A stretch of 35,901 nt of DNA from Thermoproteota archaeon (GTDB lineage Archaea > Korarchaeota > Korarchaeia > Korarchaeales > Korarchaeaceae): the NCBI GenBank assembly GCA_027061785.1, contig JAMOVA010000130.1, positions 1-35,901 of the forward strand, in the 5' to 3' direction. This document shows positions 23,196-35,901 of this stretch, piece by piece; within the stretch, counting starts at the first letter, position 1; each line of letters starts with the position of its first letter. The translations under genes and the position numbers were made by a program. A model generated the notes under the pieces. That model was not told where the DNA came from. It saw nothing but the letters and a program-made list of their open reading frames with translations, and ran no database searches.

Positions 23196-24209
23196 TCATT
23201 TGGGAAGCTCCACGACCGTGAATCTGCCCTCCTTGGTGAGCCTCACCTTCCCCTCCCTCTCCATTCTCCTGAGCCGCCTCCAAACCGTGGCTCTGGGGGC
23301 ATCCATGGACCTTATGATCTCCGACTGCATGGCCCTCCCCCCTCTCTCCTCCAGGAACTCCAATATCCGCTGTTCCAACTCGTCCGTCGCCTCGGGTACC
23401 ATTCTTCCCTTTCTTCCCCTCCCTCTCAACGCGAGGAGGATGATTGCGAGTGAAGCGACCCCCAAGGGCAGGAGGTAGACGTAGGGGAATGGGCTTGTCT
23501 CCTGAGATAGTTGGCTCTCCGCTTTCTCAGTCGATCTCGTAAAGGACGCAGGGGTGAACGACGACGTTTCAGGGGTCTGGGTCCCCGAGCTCGTCGTTAT
23601 AGGTGGAGAGGAGGTTGACGGCCGCCATCTGACATTTTCGGTGGTCTCGTTCATGTTCCCGGTTGTGGAGGGAGTGATTTGTGGTGCTGATGTCTTCTGG
23701 GTCAACTTATATGAAATCCAATGTCTCCCACCCTTGAAATCTATGATCAGCCAACTACCTGCCAGTTCTAACCTATCCGGGATGTCCGACATCCCCAAGA
23801 TGACGCACTCATTAATGAGTCTGACCTGCGAGCTGTTCACATCCAGATCGAAGGTGAGGTTCCACACGGGACCCGTCTTGGTGGTGAGAGAGGGGGTCTG
23901 GTATGAAACACTCAGGTGCCTGATTCCAGGCGCCTGAACAACTATCTTATTTCCTTTAAGCGTGTAATTAACCAAGAGGCCATCTCCCACGACGATCAGG
24001 TGATGTGGCTCCCCATCAATCTTCAGAGAGACACCTCTGCTGCTCAGGGTGAGATTCGTCTCCAACAGGACATCGACCCAGCCATCAGGAAAAACCGTCA
24101 AGACTGCTTTGGACGACATCGAGGCCACGACTGGAATCGGGGTAATGAGTGCCAGTGTCATTGTAATGAGCACTATTGTCGCCAGTACAGGCCCCTTGCA
24201 TCCTCTCAA
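23196..24209 (-). CDS. Membrane-anchored winged-helix regulator with extracellular sensor domain (COG2512-like)
   Basis: This is a one-component signal transducer of 337 residues. Order: signal or anchor helix (VLATIVLITMTLALITPIPVVA); a beta-rich extracellular domain (about 30-165); a Ser/Thr/Pro-rich stalk (about 165-230); a transmembrane helix (YVYLLPLGVASLAIILLAL); and a cytoplasmic winged helix (LEQRILEFLEERGGRAMQSEIIRSMDAPRATVWRRLRRMEREGKVRLTKEGR) with a clear recognition helix and wing. Transmembrane winged-helix regulators of this design are an archaeal speciality. Being next to exported MBL hydrolases and surface proteins, it may sense the cell surface and control them, though no target site is visible. 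Confidence 0.85.
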   Translation of the reverse strand: MRGCKGPVLATIVLITMTLALITPIPVVASMSSKAVLTVFPDGWVDVLLETNLTLSSRGVSLKIDGEPHHLIVVGDGLLVNYTLKGNKIVVQAPGIRHLSVSYQTPSLTTKTGPVWNLTFDLDVNSSQVRLINECVILGMSDIPDRLELAGSWLIIDFKGGRHWISYKLTQKTSAPQITPSTTGNMNETTENVRWRPSTSSPPITTSSGTQTPETSSFTPASFTRSTEKAESQLSQETSPFPYVYLLPLGVASLAIILLALRGRGRKGRMVPEATDELEQRILEFLEERGGRAMQSEIIRSMDAPRATVWRRLRRMEREGKVRLTKEGRFTVVELPK

Positions 24210-24299: not shown

Positions 24300-25100
24300 T
24301 TAGTGGGGAGATCCACCATCGGAGGATGTTCCTGTCATCCCTCCCTTGCCCATCCCTCCGCTCTCCTCGTGATCACGGGTTGGATGCTCTCCCGCAGATC
24401 CCGGCTGAGCGTTTCCTCCAGTGGTGGAGATAGTCTTCGTCATCTTAACGCTCTGCTGTGCCACGATTGCGTCAATAACGTCGGAGAGCAGTTGATCTAC
24501 CACTCTCAGGTAATGAGCGGTCTCATTGCGGTCTCCGGAAAGCCCGGAAATTCTAGCTCTGCTCAGGTTACGCTCCGCCTGCAGGAGGAGCCCCTCGATC
24601 CGACTGGTGTCCACACCCTCGGCCTTCATGTTGATCACAACCGATTTCAGCCTTTCCAATCTCATCTCGTGTCTCATCACATCATATATGGGACTGGGTC
24701 GTTGATTTCCTAGAACATCTATCCTCCACCTGCTGAGGCAGATGAGCAGGTCTGCGTAGGAATTTCCCAGCAGGTTAAGGGCCTTAAGAGCGTTCGTTGC
24801 AGCCAATCTCTCATTAGATGATTGTAGACTGACCTCAGCGGCCTTGGCGTATTTATCGGAGAGTTCCAAATTCGTTTCAGCCTCCTTGTACTGCTGACCG
24901 CAGTGCTCCATGACAGGTTCCGCGCCTCCTATGCGGGAGAGGAGGACGGAGAGGTCCGTTCTGGTGACATTATAGAGGCCGAGAATGCCTAGGGTGACAG
25001 AATTCCCTGCCTCTGAGTGAACATATAGTGTTCCGGTGAGAATAGCAGCAATTAGGATCGCTAGCAGGCTCAGACTTCCCTTCCCTTTCGTCCAAGTCAC
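24300..25100 (-). CDS. Exported helical protein of unknown function
   Basis: No family recognised. After a signal or anchor helix (LSLLAILIAAILTGTLYVH) the protein is almost entirely helical (residues about 55-235), with Ser/Asn-rich turns and two Cys (MEHCGQQ, LLICLSR). It ends in a Gly/Ser/Thr-rich hydrophilic tail. The layout resembles four-helix sensor or hemopexin-free spacer domains of archaeal surface proteins. The GTG at 25100 is preferred because AGAGGTGG lies just upstream; in-frame ATGs at 25127 and 25184 are possible. It lies 90 nt upstream of the membrane-bound regulator on the same strand, so the two may be linked functionally. Confidence 0.75.
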   Translation of the reverse strand: MTWTKGKGSLSLLAILIAAILTGTLYVHSEAGNSVTLGILGLYNVTRTDLSVLLSRIGGAEPVMEHCGQQYKEAETNLELSDKYAKAAEVSLQSSNERLAATNALKALNLLGNSYADLLICLSRWRIDVLGNQRPSPIYDVMRHEMRLERLKSVVINMKAEGVDTSRIEGLLLQAERNLSRARISGLSGDRNETAHYLRVVDQLLSDVIDAIVAQQSVKMTKTISTTGGNAQPGSAGEHPTRDHEESGGMGKGGMTGTSSDGGSPH

Positions 25101-25229
25101 CTGATGGGCACCACCTCTTTCGCTCATTGTAGAATAAAACTGCGCCGCGTGAGCGATGGGCGCTAGGTGGGCGGAAGATGCCATCAGATCTGGGTTGTCA
25201 TCGTGTCGTTAGAAAGGTTCCAATGCCCA

Positions 25230-25550: not shown

Positions 25551-26153
25551 TTAAATCCACCTTCCCTCCATCATGTGAGAGACCGATTCTATAATGAGGT
25601 GTTTCCTCACCTTGATTAGGAAATCCTTGAAGGCCCTTTCCACATTGAAACCCTTGAGGGCCGAGATCTCCCACACATCAGCCTTTATCCCTAGAAGGGG
25701 GACGATGCTGCTCGGGTCCTTGGCGTAGGGGAGGTCGTGCTTGTTCGAGAATATCACCGTCGGGAAGCGGGCACCGAGGACCTCCCTAGCTTCCTGGTAC
25801 TGTTCCATCGCGTAAACTAAGTGAGCCGGTTGAGTGGCATCTATCAGGAGGATCACCCCGTTCTTGCCCCTGAGAAGTGCCTTTCTGGCGCCGGAGAATG
25901 CTACTTGTCCCGGAGTTCCGGTAATGGTGACCTTCCAGATCTCATTCGAGGGATCTACCTCATCTATCTGGTTTCTCCTGTATATCCTGTTCTCAGTCGC
26001 GTCCCACAGGACTATACCGTAGTCGAAGCCCACGGTTGTGGAGAATGTCCCCTTGGAGTAGTCCATCCTGACGGCCCACGGGTCGAGCTTCCTTATCAGC
26101 GTCGTCTTGCCAGCTTGGTGCGGCCCTATTACAACGAGCTTCATTTTCTTCAT
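25551..26153 (-). CDS. Small Ras/SRPRB-like GTPase (COG2229, MglA-like)
   Basis: This 200-residue P-loop GTPase contains G1 GPHQAGKTT (residues about 10-18), a G2 Thr in KGTFSTTVGFDYG, G3 as TGTPGQ in place of DxxGQ, G4 SNKHD, and G5 SALKG. COG2229 proteins are the prokaryotic relatives of the SRP receptor beta subunit and of MglA, which controls polarity of type IV pili in Myxococcus. The missing Asp of DxxG (here Thr) is common in this group. The gene lies 38 nt after a stalked surface-protein gene and is divergent from the pilus-like operon, so a role in placing or switching that machine is a reasonable hypothesis. Confidence 0.85.
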   Translation of the reverse strand: MKKMKLVVIGPHQAGKTTLIRKLDPWAVRMDYSKGTFSTTVGFDYGIVLWDATENRIYRRNQIDEVDPSNEIWKVTITGTPGQVAFSGARKALLRGKNGVILLIDATQPAHLVYAMEQYQEAREVLGARFPTVIFSNKHDLPYAKDPSSIVPLLGIKADVWEISALKGFNVERAFKDFLIKVRKHLIIESVSHMMEGRWI

Positions 26154-26190
26154 GGAGGGACCCTCCCTAAGTGGCAGGCGACCCCTTTGA

Positions 26191-26946
26191 TCACCTCCTC
26201 CTAAGAGCCATCACCAAGAGAATGATCACTAGAACGCCGATCACTCCTAAGCCGATCAGCCGAACATCCAGCTGTGCCCCCGCGGAGGAGCCGGAGGTCA
26301 CCGTTATCGTGCGCACCTTGGTCAGCGTAACGTTTTTGGTCAGAGTGGCAGTTTTCGTTACATTCTGTGTCACTGTCCTGAGGATGGTGAGGGTCGTTAT
26401 ATTGAACTGGGTGAAGGTAGTGGTTTCAGTCCTAGTAACCGTTTGTGTCACAGTTTGAAGGTACTCCAGCGCCTTGGTCACGGTCTCCGTTAGGGTGACG
26501 GTCGTGACGTTAGTAATCGTCTGTGGAACCGGGACCACTATTGAGAAGTGCTCAGTATCGGCATCGAACCACCCGGAGGATGAATCTTTCATCTTCAGGA
26601 TGGCCGTGTACGAGTAAGTTCCGGGATCCGTGAGCCTCTCGAAGTGGAGGGTCACGGTCTTCTCCTCTGATATGGCACCTACCGAGTACCTGATGGATTC
26701 GGCCAAGTACTCGCCCGTTGAATCGTCCCTTATGAGCACGACGTAGTAGCCGGGTGAGTCGAACTGAACCTTCACTCCCACCTCTACCGTTACTTTGACG
26801 ACCGTCTCGTTGATAGGAGTTTCCTCCAAGCTTATATCGGTTATCCATCCCTGCGTCGCCGCGCTCCTTGCTAATGGGAATGAGAGAGCGGCTAACAAAA
26901 TCACAAGGCCAAGTCTCAGGTATGATGGCGGGATTTTCATTTTCAC
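26191..26946 (-). CDS. Stalked surface protein with C-terminal membrane anchor
   Basis: This 251-residue protein has a signal peptide (LRLGLVILLAALSFPLARSAATQG) and a beta-sandwich-like ectodomain (about 30-130; VTVEVGVKVQFDSPGYYVVLIRD). A Thr/Val stalk of some 75 residues follows, made of TVT-type repeats with several N-x-T sites (NVTTVTLTETVTKAL, TQNVTKTATLTKNVTL), then a C-terminal helix (LIGLGVIGVLVIILLVMAL) and basic tail. This is the standard form of an archaeal surface protein tethered below the S-layer and probably glycosylated. The gene leads a two-gene unit with the GTPase. The ATG at 26940 would suit a leaderless start better than that at 26946. Confidence 0.8.
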   Translation of the reverse strand: MKMKIPPSYLRLGLVILLAALSFPLARSAATQGWITDISLEETPINETVVKVTVEVGVKVQFDSPGYYVVLIRDDSTGEYLAESIRYSVGAISEEKTVTLHFERLTDPGTYSYTAILKMKDSSSGWFDADTEHFSIVVPVPQTITNVTTVTLTETVTKALEYLQTVTQTVTRTETTTFTQFNITTLTILRTVTQNVTKTATLTKNVTLTKVRTITVTSGSSAGAQLDVRLIGLGVIGVLVIILLVMALRRR

Positions 26947-26964
26947 TCATGTGATGTGCATGGT

Positions 26965-26974
26965 GCTTAAAAGG
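26965..26974 (-). promoter_or_regulatory. TATA-like box for the surface protein/GTPase unit
   Basis: CCTTTTAAGC on the minus strand is 23-29 nt upstream of the two candidate ATGs (26946, 26940), consistent with a leaderless mRNA. Confidence 0.45.
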
Positions 26975-27056
26975 GTAAAACATGGAAGTGATGAATCCCC
27001 GCTTTCCCCATCCAATTTTTACCGTTGGGTGGGAACAGAAAGAATTGTAAGTTAGG

Positions 27057-27064
27057 GATATATT
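27057..27064 (+). promoter_or_regulatory. TATA-like box for the LamG pilin-like gene
   Basis: GATATATT is centred about 45 nt upstream of the TTG start at 27105, so the transcript should have a short leader. Confidence 0.4.
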
Positions 27065-27104
27065 GGAGGAACATATCGCAGATCCGGAAAGGGGGCTGTG
27101 AAGG

Positions 27105-28250
27105 TTGGAAAGCGCCATAGCTCTGCTGTTCTTCGCCATTATAATACTGCTCATGATCGGCTTGGTCGTCCAGATACAAGCGGACTTCATTTCACTCTCA
27201 AACAACGTCCAGAAGATCCTCGCTCTTGAAAGGGAGAGGGCTAAAGAGAACGCTGAGATAACGTGGAGGGGAAGGTACGATATTATATTGAGGAACCTCG
27301 GTACCAACACCAGTATTAGATACATCTACGTCTATGTGAACGGATCCAAGGTACCCAGCTTCCAATTACCGGTGGAGGACTTGGTCGCCATAGTGAATGG
27401 AACCCTCAGGCCTCATTACTACTCTGGGGGGCTTCTACTGAGTCCCAATATCAGGGTTAGACTGAACTTGGAGCAGTTTGGGCATTGGAGGATTCTCTAC
27501 AATCTACAGCAGATCGCCAGCGGCTCCACAGTCCTTCTGCAAGTTCCAATTCCTTCAGATACGGATCCCGCTAAATACTTCCCGGACGAGCAATTCCTGA
27601 ATACGAGTTGGCTTGATTTCGGAGCTGATGGTTACGCCCTCTACAGGAATCTGTCCGCTATCACCAGACCAAGGGTAAATACTGGTCTTTCCTCTGGGGA
27701 GAATTGGACGGCCTGCCTCTGGCTCAAAATCATCGATCATAAGAACTGGGGAAGTCCCTGGACGGTCCTAGACATGGACTCAATTCAGGTGATGATAGAT
27801 CCCGATTTCGATGGGGCTGAGTACCATCCGAAGGTATTCCTCAGGGTCGCAGGAACCGACCTAGTTCAGGGGGCAGACTACGTCAACGCCACTGATTGGA
27901 ACCATTACTGCGTAGTCAGCAACGGTACGCACATGCTATTCTACGTGAACGGCAGAGTGGTTGACATAAAGGATCAACCCTCTCCTCTGAGTGTCTCTTA
28001 CATTCAGTTACCGCACCAGCAATACGAGAAAGCCGAGGTAGCTGCCTTCGACGATCTTTACATTGCCAAGCGATACCTCGAATCCAGCGCGGTGAGGGCC
28101 TTAGCGGCCAACGCGATATTCGACCCGGGAGCTCCTTACATATACTTCTCGTTCGACAGGCTTCCCAATGTGATAACCAGGGTGGATTTAGTGACCGATC
28201 TCGGCGTAGTATTCGCTTCTAGTGCGCCTCAGAAACTACTGCCCGGGTAA
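27105..28250 (+). CDS. Pilin-like membrane protein with LamG/concanavalin-like domain (first copy)
   Basis: This 381-residue protein starts MESAIALLFFAIIILLMIGL, one hydrophobic helix with an acidic residue at position 2, resembling a mature type IV pilin helix but without a charged leader. A stop codon directly before the TTG excludes a longer form. Helix residues continue to about 50 (NNVQKILALERERAKENAE). A first beta domain has a conserved strand (RYIYVYVNGSKVPSF). A LamG-like fold follows (about 195-340) with two Cys that can pair (TACLWLKI, WNHYCVV), FYVNGRVVDI, and FDDLYIAKRYLESS. LamG domains bind glycans or matrix proteins. A paralogue is at 31164. Probable role: surface adhesin or minor filament subunit. 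Confidence 0.75.
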   Translation: MESAIALLFFAIIILLMIGLVVQIQADFISLSNNVQKILALERERAKENAEITWRGRYDIILRNLGTNTSIRYIYVYVNGSKVPSFQLPVEDLVAIVNGTLRPHYYSGGLLLSPNIRVRLNLEQFGHWRILYNLQQIASGSTVLLQVPIPSDTDPAKYFPDEQFLNTSWLDFGADGYALYRNLSAITRPRVNTGLSSGENWTACLWLKIIDHKNWGSPWTVLDMDSIQVMIDPDFDGAEYHPKVFLRVAGTDLVQGADYVNATDWNHYCVVSNGTHMLFYVNGRVVDIKDQPSPLSVSYIQLPHQQYEKAEVAAFDDLYIAKRYLESSAVRALAANAIFDPGAPYIYFSFDRLPNVITRVDLVTDLGVVFASSAPQKLLPG

Positions 28251-28270
28251 TAACGCGCGCTAATCGATCG

Positions 28271-28281
28271 ACATTTTTTTC
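28271..28281 (+). terminator. T-run terminator after the first LamG gene
   Basis: Seven consecutive T follow the GC-rich CGCGCG segment shortly after the stop at 28250. Archaeal transcription commonly ends at such runs. It would separate the first LamG gene from the large Cys/His-rich gene, which has TATA-like sequences of its own near 28312 and 28332. Confidence 0.4.
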
Positions 28282-28370
28282 ATGGGAAACCTCTCTCCTG
28301 CGATTTTGAAGCTAAATAATGGATGAGAAGGTTAATAAGAGTTACGGAGTTCACGCGCGAGGAGATGGGA

Positions 28371-31154
28371 ATGAAAACCCAGAGGAGGAAATTGGATGGA
28401 ATATTCTGGAAAAGAGTTGTCCTCATACTGACGCTGTCGATTCTAATAGTCCCGATTCTCCCTGTAAGTAGCAATCCATTGCACTCATTCTGGAGCTTCT
28501 TCACCTACGAGGTTCATGAGGGGGACATTGGCTGCCCTGCATCACCGGCATGCCACTGCAGCAAGACCCTAGATGTGTTCTTCGGACACCATCACCACGA
28601 TTTGAGGTTTGACGTTGAGTCCGGGCTGAGTGCTAGCTGCTGTGGATGGGACGCCAGGGACATGGACATTCCTGTGACGGCGGAGGCGTTCATAGGGGCG
28701 ATAGACTCCAGTTACATCAGGCACCTCTACAACAAATACGAGTTCCTCTTCCGACCAGGATGGGAGGACCACGTCCAGAATCGCGAGCCTTTCAGGGCCT
28801 TCGCGATAGGTCACTCCCTGCTCAAGGCTGCACCAACTTTCGCCACTTTCAACGTCAGCCAGTGCTTTGGAAACGTCTGTGGGCCATTCAAGATAACGGC
28901 CGAGGTGCATGAGGGTGGAGGATGCTGCTGGGGTAGGTACGCCAATGTATCTGTTTGGTTCAACAATTACGGCAGGTGGGAGCTCCTCCATTCTGAGAGA
29001 TTCCACCTCTCCGGGCATTGTGGCTGCGGTGGCTGTTCATCCGGGGACGTGATATCTGGATTCTTCCCGCATCTCAACGTCAATGGAATCTCCTACAGCT
29101 TCGCGTTCTTCTACTTCAACGTGACATCCAACAGATTCCTGACTCATGAGGAGGCCATGAACTACTGCCACTGCAACCCGACCACCACCAGGATATCGAT
29201 CATGCTCACCCCATGTCCTGATTACAGGTATGGAAGCGTGGCCTACGAGAGGAAGAGGTTCTGGGACACGGACGAGGGACACATGTTCAGGTACTTCTAC
29301 TCCAATGTCACCACGTGGGGATGGAGATGGTGGCATCACTACTTCCGCTGGTTCCTCTTCTCCAATGACCTCGTGTACAAGGACTCATTCGTCTATCCAA
29401 GCCTGGATGAGGCTCCCGTCAGAGAGATCGCTTCTGATAGCGTGACTGGTCATCTGACATTCTATCACAGGAGTGTTGAGGCTACGGCTTCCGCTAGCGT
29501 GGAGGATGTACTCTTCAATAACGAGGATCTGCCTGTGTTCATCGCGTCCCTGAACACAACCAATGGCATGGAGAGGAAGATCGTTTACGGACCGGTCCTG
29601 AGGCCCACCATCCTGAACTACACCATAGAGATTGTGGGGCCGAAGAAGTACCATGTGAAGCTCTGGGTGGATCCGAACATCGTTTGGGAGAACAACTTCA
29701 CAAAGGCGAAGCTGTTAGTGATCTCCTCATTCAACAAGGAGAAGGACATAGATGAGATGATATGGCACTCTTACGCTGGCTCCATCTTCAAGTTCACCGT
29801 CTCTGACGAGTACGAGCTGCCGGGCCATGTGGTGGAGAGCGGGCATGAGTGCGGATGTGGATGCGGGTGTCACCACCATCACCACCACACCCACAACATC
29901 TACGTCTTCGAAGGGACCGTTGACCTCTACGGCAAGGACTTCAGCGGCATAGCGCTGCTCTCCTACAACAACCTGCTCTACTCTGACGCGATAGTGTTGT
30001 TCACAGAGCCCGACCACAAGGTCACTCCGGTGATAAAGGTCCTCGATAATGAGACGAGCGAGGTCATCCCTGGAGCCACCGTGGTGATTGGGTCCCCGGA
30101 TGTCAGGCTGGAGGGCACCACGGACGGAACAGGAATGTGGCAGCCCGATCATCCTATAGATCCCGGACTCTACTGGGTGTACACCTACAAGGAGGGATAC
30201 CTGCCTAGGAACGAGACCATACTCATAGACCACTCTGGAGTATATGAGATGAGACTCCAGAGGGCAGAGGGAATGCTCACAGTACATGTTGTGGACAACG
30301 AGACCTCCGGGCCCATAGATCAGGCCTACGTCGTCATGACCAGGGAGTCCGATGGCATGAACGCCTTCTCCTACACCGACGTTAACGGTACAGCTTACTT
30401 CTCCTCTGACGAGGGCACCTGGCTCATCACCGCATCCAAGGAGGGATACTTCCCGTCTAACGTGACCATAACCCTGACATCAGACAACCTCACCTCCGAG
30501 GTGACCTTACGCCTCGTGAGGAACCCGAACGCCACCACCGAGACTACGGCAGCGGCCAACTACAACACCAGAGTGATACTCGGCGGATGGCTCGACGTTG
30601 AGCTTCCGGGCAACCTGAGCGGGACCTACATAATCCTCTCCAAGTACGCCAAGTACTGGAACGGCTCCACCTACGTGACTGGTCTGCCAATGGTTTACAA
30701 CGAGGTGGAGAACAAGACTTACGTGGACACGAGCGGTGGTAAGGGCCTGCAGTTCTTCCCGCTGTACGACCTGCTTGAGCATCCAGGCGAGGCCCTATCG
30801 CTCATAGGAAACAACGTGACCATAGAACTTGTGAGGACTGACGGCTATACCGTGAGGGTCAACGCAAGAGTCGGAACGCTGAGGTTCGATGATGTGCAGG
30901 TGTCAGGTACCACCGTGACCGGCAGGCTCGTATGGGACGATGGAACTGAGTTCAGACCGCAGAACGAGTGGGAGTTCGTGCAGGTGGTCGTGGCAGAGAC
31001 GGGCGACGCTGTGATAGTCAGTCCAGACGGGACGTTCACGCTGCACCTGAGCCGCGAGCTGAGTTCGTTCACCCTCAACGTGTTCTTCAAGGGACGCGGT
31101 GGGATGGAGAGCTACCAGGTTCCCTTCTCAGGGAGCTACGTGTGGAAGGGCTAG
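28371..31154 (+). CDS. Large secreted Cys/His-rich protein with two carboxypeptidase-regulatory-like domains
   Basis: This 927-residue protein has a signal peptide (WKRVVLILTLSILIVPILPVSS) and no C-terminal anchor. The N-terminal half (about 35-530) matches no family I know and is full of Cys/His clusters: CPASPACHC, GHHHH (about 72-76), SCCGWD, CFGNVCG, GCCWG, HCGCGGC, YCHCN. At about 494-508 a CGCGCGC run is joined to six His and THN. Two carboxypeptidase-regulatory (transthyretin-like) domains follow at about 550-630 and 634-715 (LDNETSEVIPGATVVIG; VDNETSGPIDQAYVVM). A beta-rich region with many N-x-T/S sites ends the protein. Metal binding (Zn, Cu or Ni) or dense disulfides are likely. 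The ATG at 28371 is chosen for the GGAGATG just upstream; 28323 is an alternative. It lies between two LamG pilin-like genes. Confidence 0.8.
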   Translation: MKTQRRKLDGIFWKRVVLILTLSILIVPILPVSSNPLHSFWSFFTYEVHEGDIGCPASPACHCSKTLDVFFGHHHHDLRFDVESGLSASCCGWDARDMDIPVTAEAFIGAIDSSYIRHLYNKYEFLFRPGWEDHVQNREPFRAFAIGHSLLKAAPTFATFNVSQCFGNVCGPFKITAEVHEGGGCCWGRYANVSVWFNNYGRWELLHSERFHLSGHCGCGGCSSGDVISGFFPHLNVNGISYSFAFFYFNVTSNRFLTHEEAMNYCHCNPTTTRISIMLTPCPDYRYGSVAYERKRFWDTDEGHMFRYFYSNVTTWGWRWWHHYFRWFLFSNDLVYKDSFVYPSLDEAPVREIASDSVTGHLTFYHRSVEATASASVEDVLFNNEDLPVFIASLNTTNGMERKIVYGPVLRPTILNYTIEIVGPKKYHVKLWVDPNIVWENNFTKAKLLVISSFNKEKDIDEMIWHSYAGSIFKFTVSDEYELPGHVVESGHECGCGCGCHHHHHHTHNIYVFEGTVDLYGKDFSGIALLSYNNLLYSDAIVLFTEPDHKVTPVIKVLDNETSEVIPGATVVIGSPDVRLEGTTDGTGMWQPDHPIDPGLYWVYTYKEGYLPRNETILIDHSGVYEMRLQRAEGMLTVHVVDNETSGPIDQAYVVMTRESDGMNAFSYTDVNGTAYFSSDEGTWLITASKEGYFPSNVTITLTSDNLTSEVTLRLVRNPNATTETTAAANYNTRVILGGWLDVELPGNLSGTYIILSKYAKYWNGSTYVTGLPMVYNEVENKTYVDTSGGKGLQFFPLYDLLEHPGEALSLIGNNVTIELVRTDGYTVRVNARVGTLRFDDVQVSGTTVTGRLVWDDGTEFRPQNEWEFVQVVVAETGDAVIVSPDGTFTLHLSRELSSFTLNVFFKGRGGMESYQVPFSGSYVWKG

Positions 31155-31163
31155 GGGACTTAG

Positions 31164-32315
31164 GTGGACAGCGCCATCGGCCTCATCTTTTTTGTTTTTT
31201 TGACAGTCATAGCCCTCTCCTTCTTTCTCAGTGCGCAGACTACTGCGAGCCAGTCAGTAGTCAAGATGAGAAAGAAGCTGGACATGGAGAGGGAGAGATC
31301 TAAGGAAAGCGTCCTCATAAGATGGCTGGACAGGTACAGTCTCCTAGTAATTAACAGGGGCAGGTCCACGGTGCTAAGATACCTTTACGTACACATCAAC
31401 GGCTCTAGAACTCCCACATTCTTCAAGGAGCTCTCGATTAACGACACCAACCTTCCCGCCGGCACGTGGACCGGCTCGGGGGTCCCGCTCGGAGAGGGGG
31501 AGTCGGTGAAGATTAGCCTCTTGGAGTACGTGAAACCGCACTTGGACTGCGATCATCCCGACTGCGTGGGCTTCGTCACCGTCTACGATGATAGGGATGT
31601 GGGGGATCTAAGGTGGGGGAACAACCCCGTCGCGGCCAGGCTGGAGGAGGGCCTGAGGGGCTACTCGTTGCACGTGGATCTGGACTACGATAACTGGGGC
31701 GTTGGCCACTTCCAGCTGCCCTCCAACTACAATTATACCGGATGCTCCTGGATCATGGTCACCAATCCGAGGGGTTCCGGATCACCCTGGCTCCTTCTGA
31801 AGCTTCAGGACTTCGAGTTCTGGTTGGATCCTCACTCGGGCAGCCCCAGAGTCATAGCGAAGATAACCAATGGGGTTGAGCTGGATCAGCCTGATGAGAG
31901 AGTGGCTGCCCCGGAGGAGTGGAACCATTACTGTGTGACCACCAGGAGGTACTGGAACGGCACCAACTGGATCAGCGAGTTTTACTTCCTCATCAATGGC
32001 AGGATTGTGGACTTCGAATCAGAGATAGATAGCGGTTTTCAGCCTAATCTAAACCAGATAAACCTTCCTCAGAGCACCAGCATGGCCGATGACGCCTGGT
32101 TCGATGAAATATTCGCTGCAACGGTTTACCTTAATCCCTCGCAGGTGAGGAAGCTCTCCTTCGGGAACCTGCCCGAGGGCCTCAGCACTACCTCTTACTC
32201 CAGGTTCTCGTTCGAGAATGTGAGGAACAGGATAACGGCTGTGGAGATAGTTACCGATCTGGGAAGGGTGTTCTCCTCCGAGTATGCGGAGGAGGGATCT
32301 CCAGGCTTACCTTGA
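31164..32315 (+). CDS. Pilin-like membrane protein with LamG/concanavalin-like domain (second copy)
   Basis: This 383-residue paralogue of the protein at 27105 starts MDSAIGLIFFVFLTVIALSFF, the same MxSAIxLxFF opening. A charged helix (KMRKKLDMERERSKESVLIRW) and the strand RYLYVHINGSRTPTF follow. The LamG-like domain (about 180-345) has the equivalent Cys pair (GCSWIMV, WNHYCVTT), the strand FYFLINGRIVDF and the helix-strand DEIFAATVYLNPSQVRKL. It ends with a strand shared by both paralogues (RITAVEIVTDLGRVFSS). A TAG directly before the GTG start rules out a prepilin leader here too. It begins 9 nt after the large Cys/His-rich gene and overlaps or abuts the ATPase gene, so all are in one operon. 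Confidence 0.75.
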   Translation: MDSAIGLIFFVFLTVIALSFFLSAQTTASQSVVKMRKKLDMERERSKESVLIRWLDRYSLLVINRGRSTVLRYLYVHINGSRTPTFFKELSINDTNLPAGTWTGSGVPLGEGESVKISLLEYVKPHLDCDHPDCVGFVTVYDDRDVGDLRWGNNPVAARLEEGLRGYSLHVDLDYDNWGVGHFQLPSNYNYTGCSWIMVTNPRGSGSPWLLLKLQDFEFWLDPHSGSPRVIAKITNGVELDQPDERVAAPEEWNHYCVTTRRYWNGTNWISEFYFLINGRIVDFESEIDSGFQPNLNQINLPQSTSMADDAWFDEIFAATVYLNPSQVRKLSFGNLPEGLSTTSYSRFSFENVRNRITAVEIVTDLGRVFSSEYAEEGSPGLP

Positions 32316-32329
32316 AGGAGGGAATGCTT

Positions 32330-33904
32330 ATGTTTGGTATTGGGAAGTTGAGGTTCCCCCTGAGGGGGGTCAATCTAAATATGGTGAGCGTGATAGAGGG
32401 TCTCGAATCAGTCGATCTGGAGAGCGAGAAGGGGAAGGGAAAGGAGAAGAAGGAGAAGCAGGAGGAGCTGAAGATACCGATAATAGGAAAGGAGATCTAC
32501 GTCACTAGGGAGGAGGTCCCGCCCGGCAGGGAGCTCATGAGGGCCGAGGGAACTGGTTTCACCAACGTACTGGTGAGGGAGTCTGACGGGAGCTACAGGT
32601 ACGTGGTCAACGAGTGGATGCTCACCAAGAACGACAAGAAACTGATCAACCTGATCCTCTCGGACGTGATGATGTTCCAGGAGCAGTACTACGACAAGCT
32701 CGTGGCCGGCAGGCTGGAGGAGGTCATACAGGAGATAGTGAGGAAGTACAGGCTCGAGACCGAGTTCAACCTCAGGAAGGACGTGGTCATGTACTACGTG
32801 CTGAGGGACACCATAGGCTTCGGCATGATCCAGCCCCTCATCTACGACTGGAACATAACGGACATCGATGTGAAGGGAACCGACCCCGTGAGGGTGAAGA
32901 TGAGGCGCTTCGCCGGCAGGTGGATAAACACGAACGTGAGGTTCCCGACTGAGATAGCCCTCAGGAGGTTCACCTCTAGGATCGCGTCGCTCTACGGGAG
33001 GGGCATAAGCGAGGCCACCCCGCTAGTCTCCTTCATGTACAAGAGCAAGGACGGTAGCCTGAGGTTCAGGGTCGCCGCAAGCTTCGGCGGGGTTAAGAGC
33101 GAGCAGACCACGGTGCAGATAAGGAAGTTCCCTGCAAAGCCATTCCTCTTCAACGACCTGATAAAGTTCGGATCCCTCTCCCCTGAAGCTGCAGTAGCGA
33201 TATGGATGATGGTCGACCACAAGGGGAAGGTCGCCTACTCGGGTCCTGTAGGCACCGGAAAGACCACGCTGCTCAACGCCGCCCTCGCGATGTTCGATCC
33301 CAGGAAGAAACTGGTCACCATAGAGGACATAGAAGAGCTGGCCCTTCGATTCAAGGGCAACAGCTGGGTCCCGTACTACGCCAGAGGAGGCGAGTTCTAC
33401 GAGATAGTGAGGTTCGCCCTCAGGATAACTCCCGATCTCCTCATACTGGCCGAGGTCCTGGGAAGGGAGCTGGGGGATGTGATAGCCTCGCAGACGGGTC
33501 ACGGACTGGCCTTCACCATACACGCCAACACGGTGGAGGAGTTCAAGCTGAGGGTCAGGATGCTGCTCAGGATGTACTACGGGGAGAACGCCAGCGAGGA
33601 GCTGATAAACTCTGTGATGAGGGAGCTCTGGTCACTCCTCTTCCTGAACATCAAGGAGGATAAGAGGGTCTTGGACCAGATCTACATGGTGGATATAAGC
33701 ACGGGGGACATGATACGCGTGTACCAGCATCCCACGGACTTCGATCTGGACAGGTTCTTGTGGCAGCTCCACTCCAGGACCAACAAGCCAGTCAGCGACC
33801 TGAGAGACGAGTTCGAGGACAGGCTGGACTTCCTCCTCACCCACATGGATCTGGAGCTGGAGGACTTCTACAGAGAACTCGTGAGGTGGTACTACAGGAG
33901 GTGA
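32330..33904 (+). CDS. Type IV filament/secretion ATPase (FlaI/TadA/PilB-like)
   Basis: This motor ATPase powers extension or retraction of type IV filaments. The 524-residue protein has an N-terminal domain (about 60-270; YVLRDTIGFGMIQPLIYDWNITDIDVKG is the usual FlaI/TadA N2D signature). Walker A is GPVGTGKTTLLN (about 305-316), the Asp box is VTIEDIEELAL, the Walker B-equivalent is TPDLLILAEVLGRELGDV, and the His box is GHGLAFTIHAN. Most homologues have GEVRGxE, and here the Gly and Arg are Ala and Leu. GGAGG precedes the ATG at 32330 by 8 nt; ATG 32324 and TTG 32312 are in frame. The following small proteins and the FlaJ-like protein complete the core of a filament system. Confidence 0.9.
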   Translation: MFGIGKLRFPLRGVNLNMVSVIEGLESVDLESEKGKGKEKKEKQEELKIPIIGKEIYVTREEVPPGRELMRAEGTGFTNVLVRESDGSYRYVVNEWMLTKNDKKLINLILSDVMMFQEQYYDKLVAGRLEEVIQEIVRKYRLETEFNLRKDVVMYYVLRDTIGFGMIQPLIYDWNITDIDVKGTDPVRVKMRRFAGRWINTNVRFPTEIALRRFTSRIASLYGRGISEATPLVSFMYKSKDGSLRFRVAASFGGVKSEQTTVQIRKFPAKPFLFNDLIKFGSLSPEAAVAIWMMVDHKGKVAYSGPVGTGKTTLLNAALAMFDPRKKLVTIEDIEELALRFKGNSWVPYYARGGEFYEIVRFALRITPDLLILAEVLGRELGDVIASQTGHGLAFTIHANTVEEFKLRVRMLLRMYYGENASEELINSVMRELWSLLFLNIKEDKRVLDQIYMVDISTGDMIRVYQHPTDFDLDRFLWQLHSRTNKPVSDLRDEFEDRLDFLLTHMDLELEDFYRELVRWYYRR

Positions 33905-33908
33905 GCCC

Positions 33909-34280
33909 TTGGAGATAACTCTGGAGTCGATATCCCTCATCGTGATAGCGCTTACGTCGATAATCGTAGTGGGATCCATAGTGTTCGAGGTACTTCCCGC
34001 TCAGATGAAGGTGATGGAACCGGGCATAATGGTTCGAGTTGAGGACACTGAGTTCTCACTAAACAGAACCTGGTTCATCCTTTCCATTACTTCAGACAAC
34101 GAGATGCAGAACATTACTATTATGAAAACGGATGGAACGGTTTGTAATATGAGTAAGATCTCGTACACCGAGCGCACTGTCAAGGTCTTCGGCTTCTGTG
34201 AGGGAGATCTTAGGGGAGATGTGGTCGTTATTGCCGTAAAAGTTGGAGAATACACGTATCAGTACAATGCTCGCCTCTAA
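33909..34280 (+). CDS. Small N-terminally anchored beta protein of the pilus-like operon (FlaG/FlaF-like)
   Basis: This 123-residue protein begins MEITLESISLIVIALTSIIVVGSIVFEV, a single helix with no charged leader. A beta-rich outer domain follows (GIMVRVEDTEFSLNRTWFILSITSDNEMQ) with two Cys (GTVCNM, GFCEGD) that could pair. Size and layout resemble FlaF/FlaG of archaella, which form the periplasmic stator, or a minor pilin. AGGAGGTGA lies 4 nt before the TTG start, 4 nt after the ATPase stop, so coupling is tight. No family motif is certain. Confidence 0.7.
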   Translation: MEITLESISLIVIALTSIIVVGSIVFEVLPAQMKVMEPGIMVRVEDTEFSLNRTWFILSITSDNEMQNITIMKTDGTVCNMSKISYTERTVKVFGFCEGDLRGDVVVIAVKVGEYTYQYNARL

Positions 34281-34535
34281 CCCCTTTACCGTTTTTAGGT
34301 ACTTTTTGATTGAGGATTATTATATAGCAGGTTCGACGTTATATTAAATAAGCTACTTAATGGGGTTTACTACAAGGAAATAATTGCATGTAGGATTCTA
34401 GTTACCTTTCTTCCTACAAATTTTCCAGTTTTATGAGTTCCAAAAAGAAAAAGAAAGGACGTCGGCGATTGCTTTAGGAAAAGAAAGGCTATCTTTTTAT
34501 TTGGCTAAGAGAGGATAAAGAGGGGTGTATAGCCC
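34281..34535 (+). promoter_or_regulatory. AT-rich internal promoter region before the putative major subunit gene
   Basis: This 255-nt gap is AT-rich and holds no gene. T runs after the stop at 34280 (34292-34296, 34303-34307) could stop transcription. A TATA-like ATCTTTTTATTT (34491-34502) is followed by AGGGGTG (34521-34527) before the TTG at 34536. A separate promoter in the middle of the operon suggests that the next gene is expressed at a higher level. Confidence 0.5.
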
Positions 34536-34967
34536 TTGCAGATAACCGTAGAAAAGGTCGTGTGGATCGCCCTAGTGCTGGTGGTTGTAGCAGTCGTGGG
34601 TCTCTTCCTGATGGGTCAGGTACTTACCGGAGCTCAGCAGGTAGGGCAGAGATTCTACGTCAGGCTGATCAACAGCCAGTACTCCGACTCGAACCAGTCA
34701 TACATCATAAGCTTCAGGGTCGTCAATACCGGTGAGGGAGGCAATAACCTGACCAGCATAGACATAGATCCCGTTGGATTCGGTTCTGGCGCCAGCGTCT
34801 ATCCGATAAGCCCGGACAGCCTCAACGACCTCAACATCCCGCCCAAGGGAACCATGGACATCACGGTGAGGGTCTCTGGCGGATACGTGACTGGAAGCAA
34901 GTCCCTAGTGATAACTGCTACTTTTAGCGACGGTTCTACTGCCGCTCAGACTGTCGAGATTCCGTAA
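34536..34967 (+). CDS. Putative major filament subunit or anchored beta protein
   Basis: This 143-residue protein starts MQITVEKVVWIALVLVVVAVVGLFLMG, followed by a beta domain (RFYVRLINSQYSDSNQSYIISFRVVNTGEGGNNLTSIDIDPVGFG) with N-x-T/S sites and an Ig-like C-terminus (TMDITVRVSGGYVTGSKSLVITATF). It has no Cys. The layout matches archaeal pilins and archaellins after processing, yet no Lys/Arg-Gly cleavage site lies before the helix. Having its own promoter and good RBS, it is the best candidate for the abundant subunit. It is followed by a similar gene 12 nt downstream. Confidence 0.68.
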   Translation: MQITVEKVVWIALVLVVVAVVGLFLMGQVLTGAQQVGQRFYVRLINSQYSDSNQSYIISFRVVNTGEGGNNLTSIDIDPVGFGSGASVYPISPDSLNDLNIPPKGTMDITVRVSGGYVTGSKSLVITATFSDGSTAAQTVEIP

Positions 34968-34979
34968 GGGGATCTCCCC

Positions 34980-35486
34980 TTGGAACTCTCTTTTTCTAAG
35001 CTCGCCATGGTCGGTATAGTCCTTGTGGCACTGGCGATAGTCTCTACTGCTTTTATAAGGGCCTATAGCCAATATTCCGAGGCCCACACGTACATAAGCA
35101 AACTCTCTTCCAAGGCCTCGAGCAAGTCAATAGCTGTGGTATCCTGTTACACTAACACCACGTATCGCGTGAGCGGGGGGTCCCTCATTCCCGATCACAA
35201 CTACACCGCGATACACCTCTATAATTACGGGGACTGGACCTACTCCGACAGGATAACCATTTATTACAGCGAGACCGGAGAGAACCTGACCATCTACTAC
35301 AACGGAACCAAGTACACTGAGGAGAACGGGACCGTCATAGTCTTTCCACCTAAGGAGCTGGTTGAGGTGGATGTGAACCTCACGGACCTTCCCTCCGTAT
35401 CCGCTTACCCGTCTGAAGATTACTATCTAGTCATTATGTGGCTGGAGTCTGGTGATGTAGAAGTTGTTAGATGCTATAGCCCTTGA
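34980..35486 (+). CDS. Second anchored beta protein of the pilus-like operon
   Basis: This 168-residue protein has an N-terminal helix (MELSFSKLAMVGIVLVALAIVSTAF), a short charged segment (YSQYSEAHTYISKLSSKAS), and then a beta domain rich in Tyr, Asn and Thr with many N-x-T sites (NTTYRV, NYTAI, ENLTIYYNGTKY, NGTVIV). It ends with strands DYYLVIMWLESGDVEVVRC. Two Cys (VVSCYTN, VVRCYSP) may pair. AGGGGAT precedes the TTG start. Its end overlaps the start of the platform-protein gene by 23 nt. It resembles minor pilins or FlaF-like proteins; no certain family. Confidence 0.68.
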   Translation: MELSFSKLAMVGIVLVALAIVSTAFIRAYSQYSEAHTYISKLSSKASSKSIAVVSCYTNTTYRVSGGSLIPDHNYTAIHLYNYGDWTYSDRITIYYSETGENLTIYYNGTKYTEENGTVIVFPPKELVEVDVNLTDLPSVSAYPSEDYYLVIMWLESGDVEVVRCYSP

Positions 35487-35901
35487 GCTGGAGAAGAAGG
35501 GAGTTTACAACGCTAAGGAAAGGCTCGAGGGGGCGATAAAGAAGGTAATCGCCTCCTCGCTTCTACTTGGGGTCTTGGCCTATGTAACCGGTTATTACGT
35601 GGTTTTGGTCCTAGTTCCCCTGTTCGCTGTGATGCTCATCTATGGCCTCTTCACCACAGGAAGGGACTACGGGCTCGTCAACAGGGAGACGGTGCTCTTC
35701 GCCCTGCACGGCTTCATACTTGCCAATGCGGGGTTCGACGTTACCGGCATATTCGATCAGTTCGCCAAGATGAGGGAGTACGAGGGAAGCTACGTCTTCA
35801 GGAAGATCATGGGATACTTCTACTTCATGGGTATGGACCTTAGAGAGGCGATAAATCGCGTACTCCAAGAGGAGAAGAGGTTAGGGGTGAGCTTCAAGAG
35901 C
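35464..35901 (+). CDS. FlaJ/TadC-like membrane platform protein (5' part; runs off the right edge)
   Basis: This would be the integral membrane assembly platform that the ATPase drives. From a TTG at 35464 (GGTGAT about 8 nt upstream) the frame is open to the window end. It reads MLDAIALELEKKGVYNAKER, then two membrane helices (IASSLLLGVLAYVTGYYVVLVLVPLFAVMLIYGLF) and a cytoplasmic segment (RETVLFALHGFILANAGFDV, KIMGYFYFMGMDLREAIN) like the four-helix T2SSF module. An in-frame stop shortly upstream excludes a much longer N-terminus. The order ATPase, small anchored proteins, platform protein is typical of archaeal type IV filament operons. Confidence 0.75.
   Translation, partial: MLDAIALELEKKGVYNAKERLEGAIKKVIASSLLLGVLAYVTGYYVVLVLVPLFAVMLIYGLFTTGRDYGLVNRETVLFALHGFILANAGFDVTGIFDQFAKMREYEGSYVFRKIMGYFYFMGMDLREAINRVLQEEKRLGVSFKS

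Follow-up and report, generated by a model that had tools for sequence, protein, structure and literature searches.

A type IV filament-related locus with LamG-bearing, leaderless pilin-like proteins in a korarchaeal genus

What would a heat-loving korarchaeon build with a pilus-type assembly ATPase whose gene lies among genes for lectin-like proteins and a very large secreted protein? Such a locus occupies the right part of the window analysed here, one entire contig of 35,901 bp (JAMOVA010000130.1) from an archaeal genome, G000, that totals 1.76 Mb. On its plus strand, from position 27105, two genes for LamG-domain proteins (LamG1 and LamG2) flank the gene for a large secreted Cys-rich protein (Big) and are followed by genes for an assembly ATPase, three short pilin-like proteins (pil1-3) and the 5' part of a platform protein; divergently, on the LamG1 side, lie genes for a surface protein with a stalk and for a Ras-like GTPase (GTPase1). 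An original prediction, made from the DNA letters, had read this neighbourhood as an undescribed adhesive or metal-binding surface machine, and all the genes that it named were found in their places. We find that the linkage of the LamG proteins with the ATPase and platform genes is not a product of chance, and we consider it reasonably likely that the locus encodes a type IV filament system of the Bas branch, building an adhesive surface fibre or short pseudopilus with a tip of lectin modules and Big. The window holds the following features of the locus.

25551..26153, minus strand: GTPase1, MglA-family small GTPase (Pfam Ras 1.2e-10; alignment)
26191..26946, minus strand: stalk protein with a signal peptide, a beta domain, a Thr/Val-rich stalk and a C-terminal transmembrane segment (residues 230-248)
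26947..27104, no strand: divergent promoter region between the stalk and LamG1 genes, with conserved blocks on both sides in a four-genome alignment
27105..28250, plus strand: LamG1, predicted modular pilin
28371..31154, plus strand: Big, secreted Cys-rich protein of 927 residues (frame readable from 28323)
31164..32315, plus strand: LamG2, predicted modular pilin paralogous to LamG1
32312..33904, plus strand: assembly ATPase of the T2SSE/FlaI superfamily, nearest to BasE
33909..34280, plus strand: pil1, short pilin-like protein with an invariant Glu6
34536..34967, plus strand: pil2, short pilin with an invariant Glu6, candidate major pilin
34980..35486, plus strand: pil3, short pilin-like protein with no Glu at position 5 or 6
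35464..35901, plus strand: platform membrane protein, 5' part

The right end of the contig cuts the locus inside the platform gene, and the continuation lies on contig C131 of G000 (L099), which holds the remainder of that gene (2-1141), a fourth pilin-like gene, pil4 (1159-1668), and a gene for a second GTPase, GTPase2. The complete locus is present in a relative, G010 (L032/L033), where GTPase1 and the stalk gene lie divergent to the series LamG1, Big, LamG2, ATPase, pil1, pil2, pil3, platform and pil4. After pil4 come a convergent gene for a 190-residue protein, GTPase2 and a gene for a 562-residue coiled-coil protein, and further on genes for a 247-residue coiled coil, a roadblock protein, an Arf-like GTPase, a 152-residue protein and a protein with seven transmembrane segments. 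The divergent pairing of the stalk gene with a LamG pilin gene recurs in G000, G006, G007, G009, G010 and G012.

Is this neighbourhood more than an accident? We compared 29 genomes of the phylum, 16 of the same genus and 13 others; the family comprises 24 genomes. LamG pilins occur in half of the genus (8 of 16) and in none of the 13 other genomes. All eight LamG-type genomes have a linked matching ATPase (seven) and/or platform gene (seven), with the gaps falling at contig ends or in an incomplete assembly. ATPase and platform genes of this type were never seen without LamG pilins: the eight other congeners and the 13 genomes outside the genus carry neither. The chance of finding eight of eight against none of 16 within the family is about 1 in 735,000 draws, uncorrected for shared descent. 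Gene order, too, is kept in G015 and G007, although their ATPases are only 69-70% and their LamG proteins about 30% identical. That unrelated surface genes had merely come to lie beside a pilus ATPase was the outcome that would have undone the original prediction, with ATPase and platform genes lacking LamG partners and LamG genes scattered at random; neither pattern was found. A module of GTPase2 and the roadblock protein does exist without the pilus, which speaks for accident, but the LamG pilins, ATPase, pil1-3 and platform retain their order in G015 and G007, at identities of 35-70%, and occur together in all eight genomes. We thus give an accidental neighbourhood almost no credence, and for the part comprising the LamG and ATPase genes co-occurrence and order rule it out.

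Among relatives lacking the LamG locus, some have a conventional type IV pilus, and in the others no type IV pilus was detected. A family of leader-bearing pilins (MRAG/ISRVVVE..., as in G021 and G002) is present in G001-003, G013 and G020-023, and members of that family were found in none of the eight LamG-type genomes. In this sample, then, the LamG-type pilus and the conventional leader-bearing pilus exclude each other. No LamG pilins were found on viral contigs, and there were no PHROGs matches. One incomplete genome, G009 (L096, L097), has two LamG-type platform paralogues, reflecting either two loci or mixed strains.

To which branch of the type IV filaments does the machinery belong? 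The expectation of a FlaI/TadA-like ATPase was borne out, in that the protein is a member of the T2SSE superfamily (Pfam T2SSE 2e-21), and its best NCBIfam model is BasE (6e-47). ATPases of the locus type score 160-163 bits against BasE and 132-133 bits against FlaI (160 and 133 for the copy in the window), whereas the conventional korarchaeal ATPases of relatives score 251-257 against FlaI and 150-167 against BasE. The curated BasE cut-off is 1000, and the 160 bits of the locus ATPase fall far below it. Judged by its sequence, the locus ATPase is a separate line, nearest to Bas. The full platform protein has 531 residues and about nine transmembrane segments, and in length, transmembrane layout and position it resembles the T2SSF platforms of relatives; it is on these traits that the proposal of a FlaJ/TadC-like platform rests, the sequence match, given below, being weak. 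Elsewhere in G000, contig C97 (L115 2569-3942) encodes a second secretion ATPase, of another type, and most congeners have a second ATPase match like it. Accompanying the G000 gene are those for a short protein like TadC and for a large surface protein of Ig-like make-up.

The two LamG proteins, correctly recognised beforehand as paralogues flanking the large protein, are 32% identical. LamG1 matches Pfam Laminin_G_3 at 1.4e-8 and LamG2 by itself just at 0.009, and seven of the nine members of the protein family match that model. The N-terminal residues of LamG1 match NCBIfam BasB (E 1e-3). In an AlphaFold2 model of LamG1 a helix (2-47) is followed by beta strands, then by a ConA-like domain and lastly by two strands (357-373), and Foldseek matched the model to ConA-like lectin folds. 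Its top matches included pentraxins, PAPP-A and, from neurotoxin receptor domains, the half that resembles a lectin; these had low TM-scores (template modelling scores), and we take them to reflect just a common ConA-like jelly-roll fold, with no suggestion of a toxin. The two family members without a Laminin_G_3 match are LamG-less paralogues of 142-147 residues in G007 and G015, which consist of the N-terminal 110 or so and the C-terminal 30 or so residues with nothing between. Because these paralogues have both ends only, the lectin module, at about residues 112-354 of LamG1, must be an insertion before the last pilin beta strands. On sequence and model, we conclude that the LamG proteins are modular pilins, made of a 46-residue N-terminal helix, a small beta domain and a ConA/LamG lectin module.

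The same inserted-LamG arrangement was found in no other genome among 394 archaeal genomes of 252 genera, and sequence profiles from PDB gave no match to the LamG pilins. An unrelated archaeon in that survey, G035 (L177 7222-8367), has a stand-alone Pilin_N pilin with LamG appended at its C-terminus (Pilin_N 2.5e-6, Laminin_G_3 1e-24), probably an independent case and a second archaeal lectin pilin design. G000 also encodes, on contigs C103 (L152 4545-8234) and C48 (L156 6486-10037), surface proteins of about 1200 residues with LamG-like regions and a Thr/Val-rich stalk, which are a possible source of the LamG module of the pilins.

How does the protein between them relate to the LamG pilins? 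Big truly starts at M17 of the readable frame, at 28371, giving 927 residues with a Sec-type signal; the G011 orthologue has a stop directly upstream of the position of this start. That stop (a TAG) had made the G011 gene look like a pseudogene, owing to a wrong upstream start, and the orthologue is intact from its Met to the contig edge. The protein comprises an orphan N-terminal region of about 545 residues, which has no relative in the 394 archaeal genomes, two CarboxypepD_reg-like domains and a C-terminal domain of about 190 residues. G007 and G015 lack the rest of Big and carry this last domain as a C-terminal fusion to a LamG pilin, which ties Big to the LamG pilins. Conservation relative to G011 is highest at the C-terminus (90%) and lowest in the N-terminal region (64%). 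The fusion and this conservation pattern together suggest that the C-terminal domain is a carrier seated on the LamG pilins and the N-terminal region a variable binding part. A pattern of conserved carrier and variable effector has been described for PilY1 (PMC8179133). We found no Pfam match to the PilY1 beta-propeller domain in Big and no match among PDB sequence profiles; the AlphaFold2 model (mean predicted local distance difference test score, pLDDT, 39.6) was too poor to judge the fold and was not used.

The original prediction had described Big as Cys/His-rich, and its length, its secretion and its Cys content held up. Thirteen cysteines, including four CxC pairs, are invariant in five genomes. 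The run of six His residues is missing in the orthologues, ruling out a conserved His-rich metal site, and for the conserved CxC cysteines disulfides would be as likely as metal binding.

What could form a shaft? The three short anchored beta proteins are much as had been predicted, with one N-terminal transmembrane segment each, as in the LamG pilins. pil1 is homologous to pil2, and the invariant Glu of both stands at position 6, or 5 without the initiator Met. We regard pil2 as the candidate major pilin because its own upstream region is conserved, its Glu6 is invariant, and it has both the linked paralogue pil4 and stand-alone paralogues. One stand-alone copy lies beside a roadblock/LC7 protein (L152 10547-11161 and 9187-9648), a further instance of a pilin adjoining a protein of the GTPase-regulator type. 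The match of pil2 to a solved archaeal pilin is weak (E 2.4), and profile links from pil2 to leader-bearing pilins and from the LamG pilin to pil3 are not significant.

No class III leader is present in the gene models of any locus pilin in any genome read; the proteins start M[EQDN]. Their starts have upstream in-frame stops or no alternative start nearby, and a purine-rich, ribosome-binding-like stretch precedes most of them. Some minor pilins of the conventional loci of relatives also start without an obvious leader, and what is unusual is not single leaderless pilins but an entire linked pilin set of this kind. Since conventional leader-bearing pilins are absent from the LamG-type genomes, the linked leaderless pilins are the shaft candidates. 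Each genome has one gene for an A24 prepilin peptidase, unlinked to the locus; the original prediction had proposed looking for a peptidase gene past the right edge of the window, and the complete G010 locus contains none.

Could the neighbouring GTPases control such a filament, as MglA controls pili? GTPase1 has the motifs GPHQAGKT (G1), GTPGQ (G3) and NKHD (G4), and in the GTPase alignment TPGQ, the P-loop GK and NKxD are invariant and the preceding Gly nearly so. GTPGQ in G3, which GTPase2 also carries, characterises MglA Groups 2-5; in Group 4, one MglA was reported from the earliest korarchaeal genome, and that group had no known conserved neighbours (PMC4316618). By these motifs, GTPase1 and GTPase2 are members of the MglA family (Groups 2-5), and the divergent stalked surface protein and GTPase of the original prediction are both present. 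GTPase1 is a duplicate of the genus-wide GTPase2 and is confined to pilus-bearing genomes, its orthologues adjoining the pilus locus in G010, G011 and G012. GTPase2, the roadblock protein, the Arf-like GTPase, the coiled-coil proteins and the seven-transmembrane protein form a module that is kept across the genus with or without the pilus, including in G004; the 152-residue protein of this module has no Pfam match of its own. The roadblock protein matches Robl_LC7 at 1.1e-6 in the G016 copy and, in single-sequence scans, weakly or not at all in other copies, and the Asp-Gly pair of MglB (D33-G34) is invariant in its alignment. Its gene lies in the module adjoining the locus, not beside GTPase1.

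The conventional pilus locus of G013 (L108 5561-17527) likewise adjoins relatives of the seven-transmembrane and 152-residue proteins, with a Ras-like GTPase (DLAGQ) and an A24 peptidase. Roadblock proteins have been reported in various archaeal type IV pilus loci (PMC4858521). This recurring company suggests a functional tie between the GTPase module and surface filaments. The comparison with MglA and MglB is supported by GTPGQ in G3, by a roadblock protein with Asp-Gly in the adjoining module and by the position beside a type IV filament locus; unlike MglA/MglB, the module is also found without this pilus and includes an extra Arf-like GTPase and coiled-coil proteins. The control by the GTPase that the original prediction suggested is therefore a hypothesis: the neighbouring MglA-like GTPase/roadblock module may control the pilus. 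On the far side of GTPase1 the window encodes, on the minus strand, a one-transmembrane protein (24300-25184) adjoining a secreted/transmembrane protein (23196-24209), a membrane-anchored regulator whose C-terminal winged helix (DUF7343/HTH_24) is cytoplasmic. Fast-evolving relatives of this pair stand beside GTPase1 in G011 and G012, not in G010.

How might the parts work together? In the adhesive filament that we favour, the cytoplasmic ATPase and the membrane platform would pull pilins out of the membrane, with pil2, together with pil1 and pil4, as the probable shaft subunit. LamG1 and LamG2 would be modular minor pilins, probably at the tip because they are too bulky for the shaft, and Big would be held there via its C-terminal carrier domain, as minor pilins hold PilY1 in bacteria. 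The fast-evolving Cys-rich N-terminal region of Big would be the likely contact or binding part, and the filament may attach to minerals, biofilm or other cells through the polysaccharide or glycoprotein on them. Several observations weigh against this picture. The platform has no Pfam T2SSF match and just a weak hhalign match (14%, E 0.002). The LamG1 model is of moderate confidence (mean pLDDT 62, the pilin part mostly 70-85). There is no detectable homology between the LamG pilin and pil2 in profile comparison, which leaves their common polymerisation a hypothesis. Finally, one would not usually expect shaft pilins to lack class III leaders, and the lack would be compatible with envelope-anchored proteins too. 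A bolder version seems to us doubtful: a leaderless type IV filament that needs no prepilin peptidase and has a lectin/Cys-rich tip, its placement being run by a duplicate GTPase of MglA type together with roadblock proteins.

The main rival is an envelope assembly like the bindosome, in which the pilins either remain anchored in the membrane or make up a short pseudopilus within the pseudoperiplasm, and the LamG proteins and Big capture polysaccharide or peptide for uptake, as opposed to distant adhesion. In its favour, class III leaders are absent from all locus pilins, and BasE and BasB are the nearest matches of the ATPase and of a pilin; the bindosome locus, too, has a secreted protein, of about 500 residues (PMC4858521). 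However, the locus has no substrate-binding protein with a pilin-type N-terminus, and pil2, in the manner of a major pilin, has given rise to stand-alone paralogues, so that we regard uptake as unlikely, if still a serious contender. The position of the Big gene between two LamG pilin genes, and the domain that they have in common by fusion, would also fit a secretion pseudopilus that exports or displays Big, the LamG pilins being pseudopilins that touch their cargo. Yet Big comes with a Sec signal, and such archaea possess no outer membrane of the sort crossed by the bacterial type II secretion system. In G007 and G015 a pilin includes the carrier domain, which suggests display over release; this explanation strikes us as improbable. 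The case for an archaellum-type motility organelle is poorer still. Its leaderless short proteins would be stator parts like ArlF and ArlG, which, as is generally known of archaella, are likewise short N-terminally anchored beta proteins without leaders, and the locus ATPase does belong to the FlaI superfamily. But no candidate for ArlH, archaellin or ArlC/D/E occurs among the genes linked in the complete locus of G010, the ATPase is closer to BasE than to FlaI, and NCBIfam ArlG has no match to the short proteins. We hold a motility organelle to be very improbable.

Is an adhesive filament of this make-up new? The nearest known system, Bas of the Sulfolobales, shares the ATPase type (BasE), the pilin N-terminus (BasB 1e-3, BasC 0.16), a large secreted protein in the locus and an operon with several short pilins (PMC4858521). 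It differs in the ATPase score, so far under the BasE cut-off, and in platform sequence, and the locus described here has LamG inside pilins, an orphan protein of 927 residues and no class III leaders. In Streptococcus sanguinis the minor pilin PilC has a ConA-like lectin module with proven glycan binding and a proposed pilus-tip position (PMC9934059). The PilA/PilB/PilC tip complex resembles the present case in having a lectin module on a minor pilin and two bulky modular pilins, but the modules of PilC are appended, whereas LamG is inserted before the last strands, and machine and host differ, the latter being archaeal here. Like PilY1/PilC of bacterial type IVa pili, Big is a large non-pilin encoded among minor pilins, its C-terminal carrier conserved and its N-terminal part variable; unlike them, it has no detected beta-propeller, and its carrier domain is also found fused to a pilin. 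The original prediction had taken so large a secreted protein to be new to archaeal filament loci, and here it was mistaken: large Cys-rich secreted proteins are common in archaeal type IV pilus loci (PMC4858521). Those of the Thermoproteales, secreted or S-layer/adhesin proteins, resemble Big in being Cys-rich and inside such a locus, and have no detectable sequence relation to it.

The claim of an undescribed adhesive machine therefore stands for the linked type IV filament-related system, which is undescribed in the literature searched, and not for its parts: type IV filaments, lectin-bearing pilins, large Cys-rich adhesin-like proteins and MglA-type GTPases are already known kinds. As far as that literature goes, the novelty lies in how these parts are combined, in LamG as an insert, in the intermediates formed by fusion and in a pilin set without leaders. 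A lectin-pilin design established in bacteria would have been reached separately in an archaeal lineage, and the LamG-less paralogue and the carrier fusion among sister species may indicate by what route a pilus tip acquires a binding function that it did not have. With a whole pilin set lacking leaders, it becomes possible to test whether prepilin processing is needed. With MglA/roadblock-type GTPases beside two non-orthologous pilus loci in one genus, Ras-like control of archaeal filaments becomes a concrete hypothesis.

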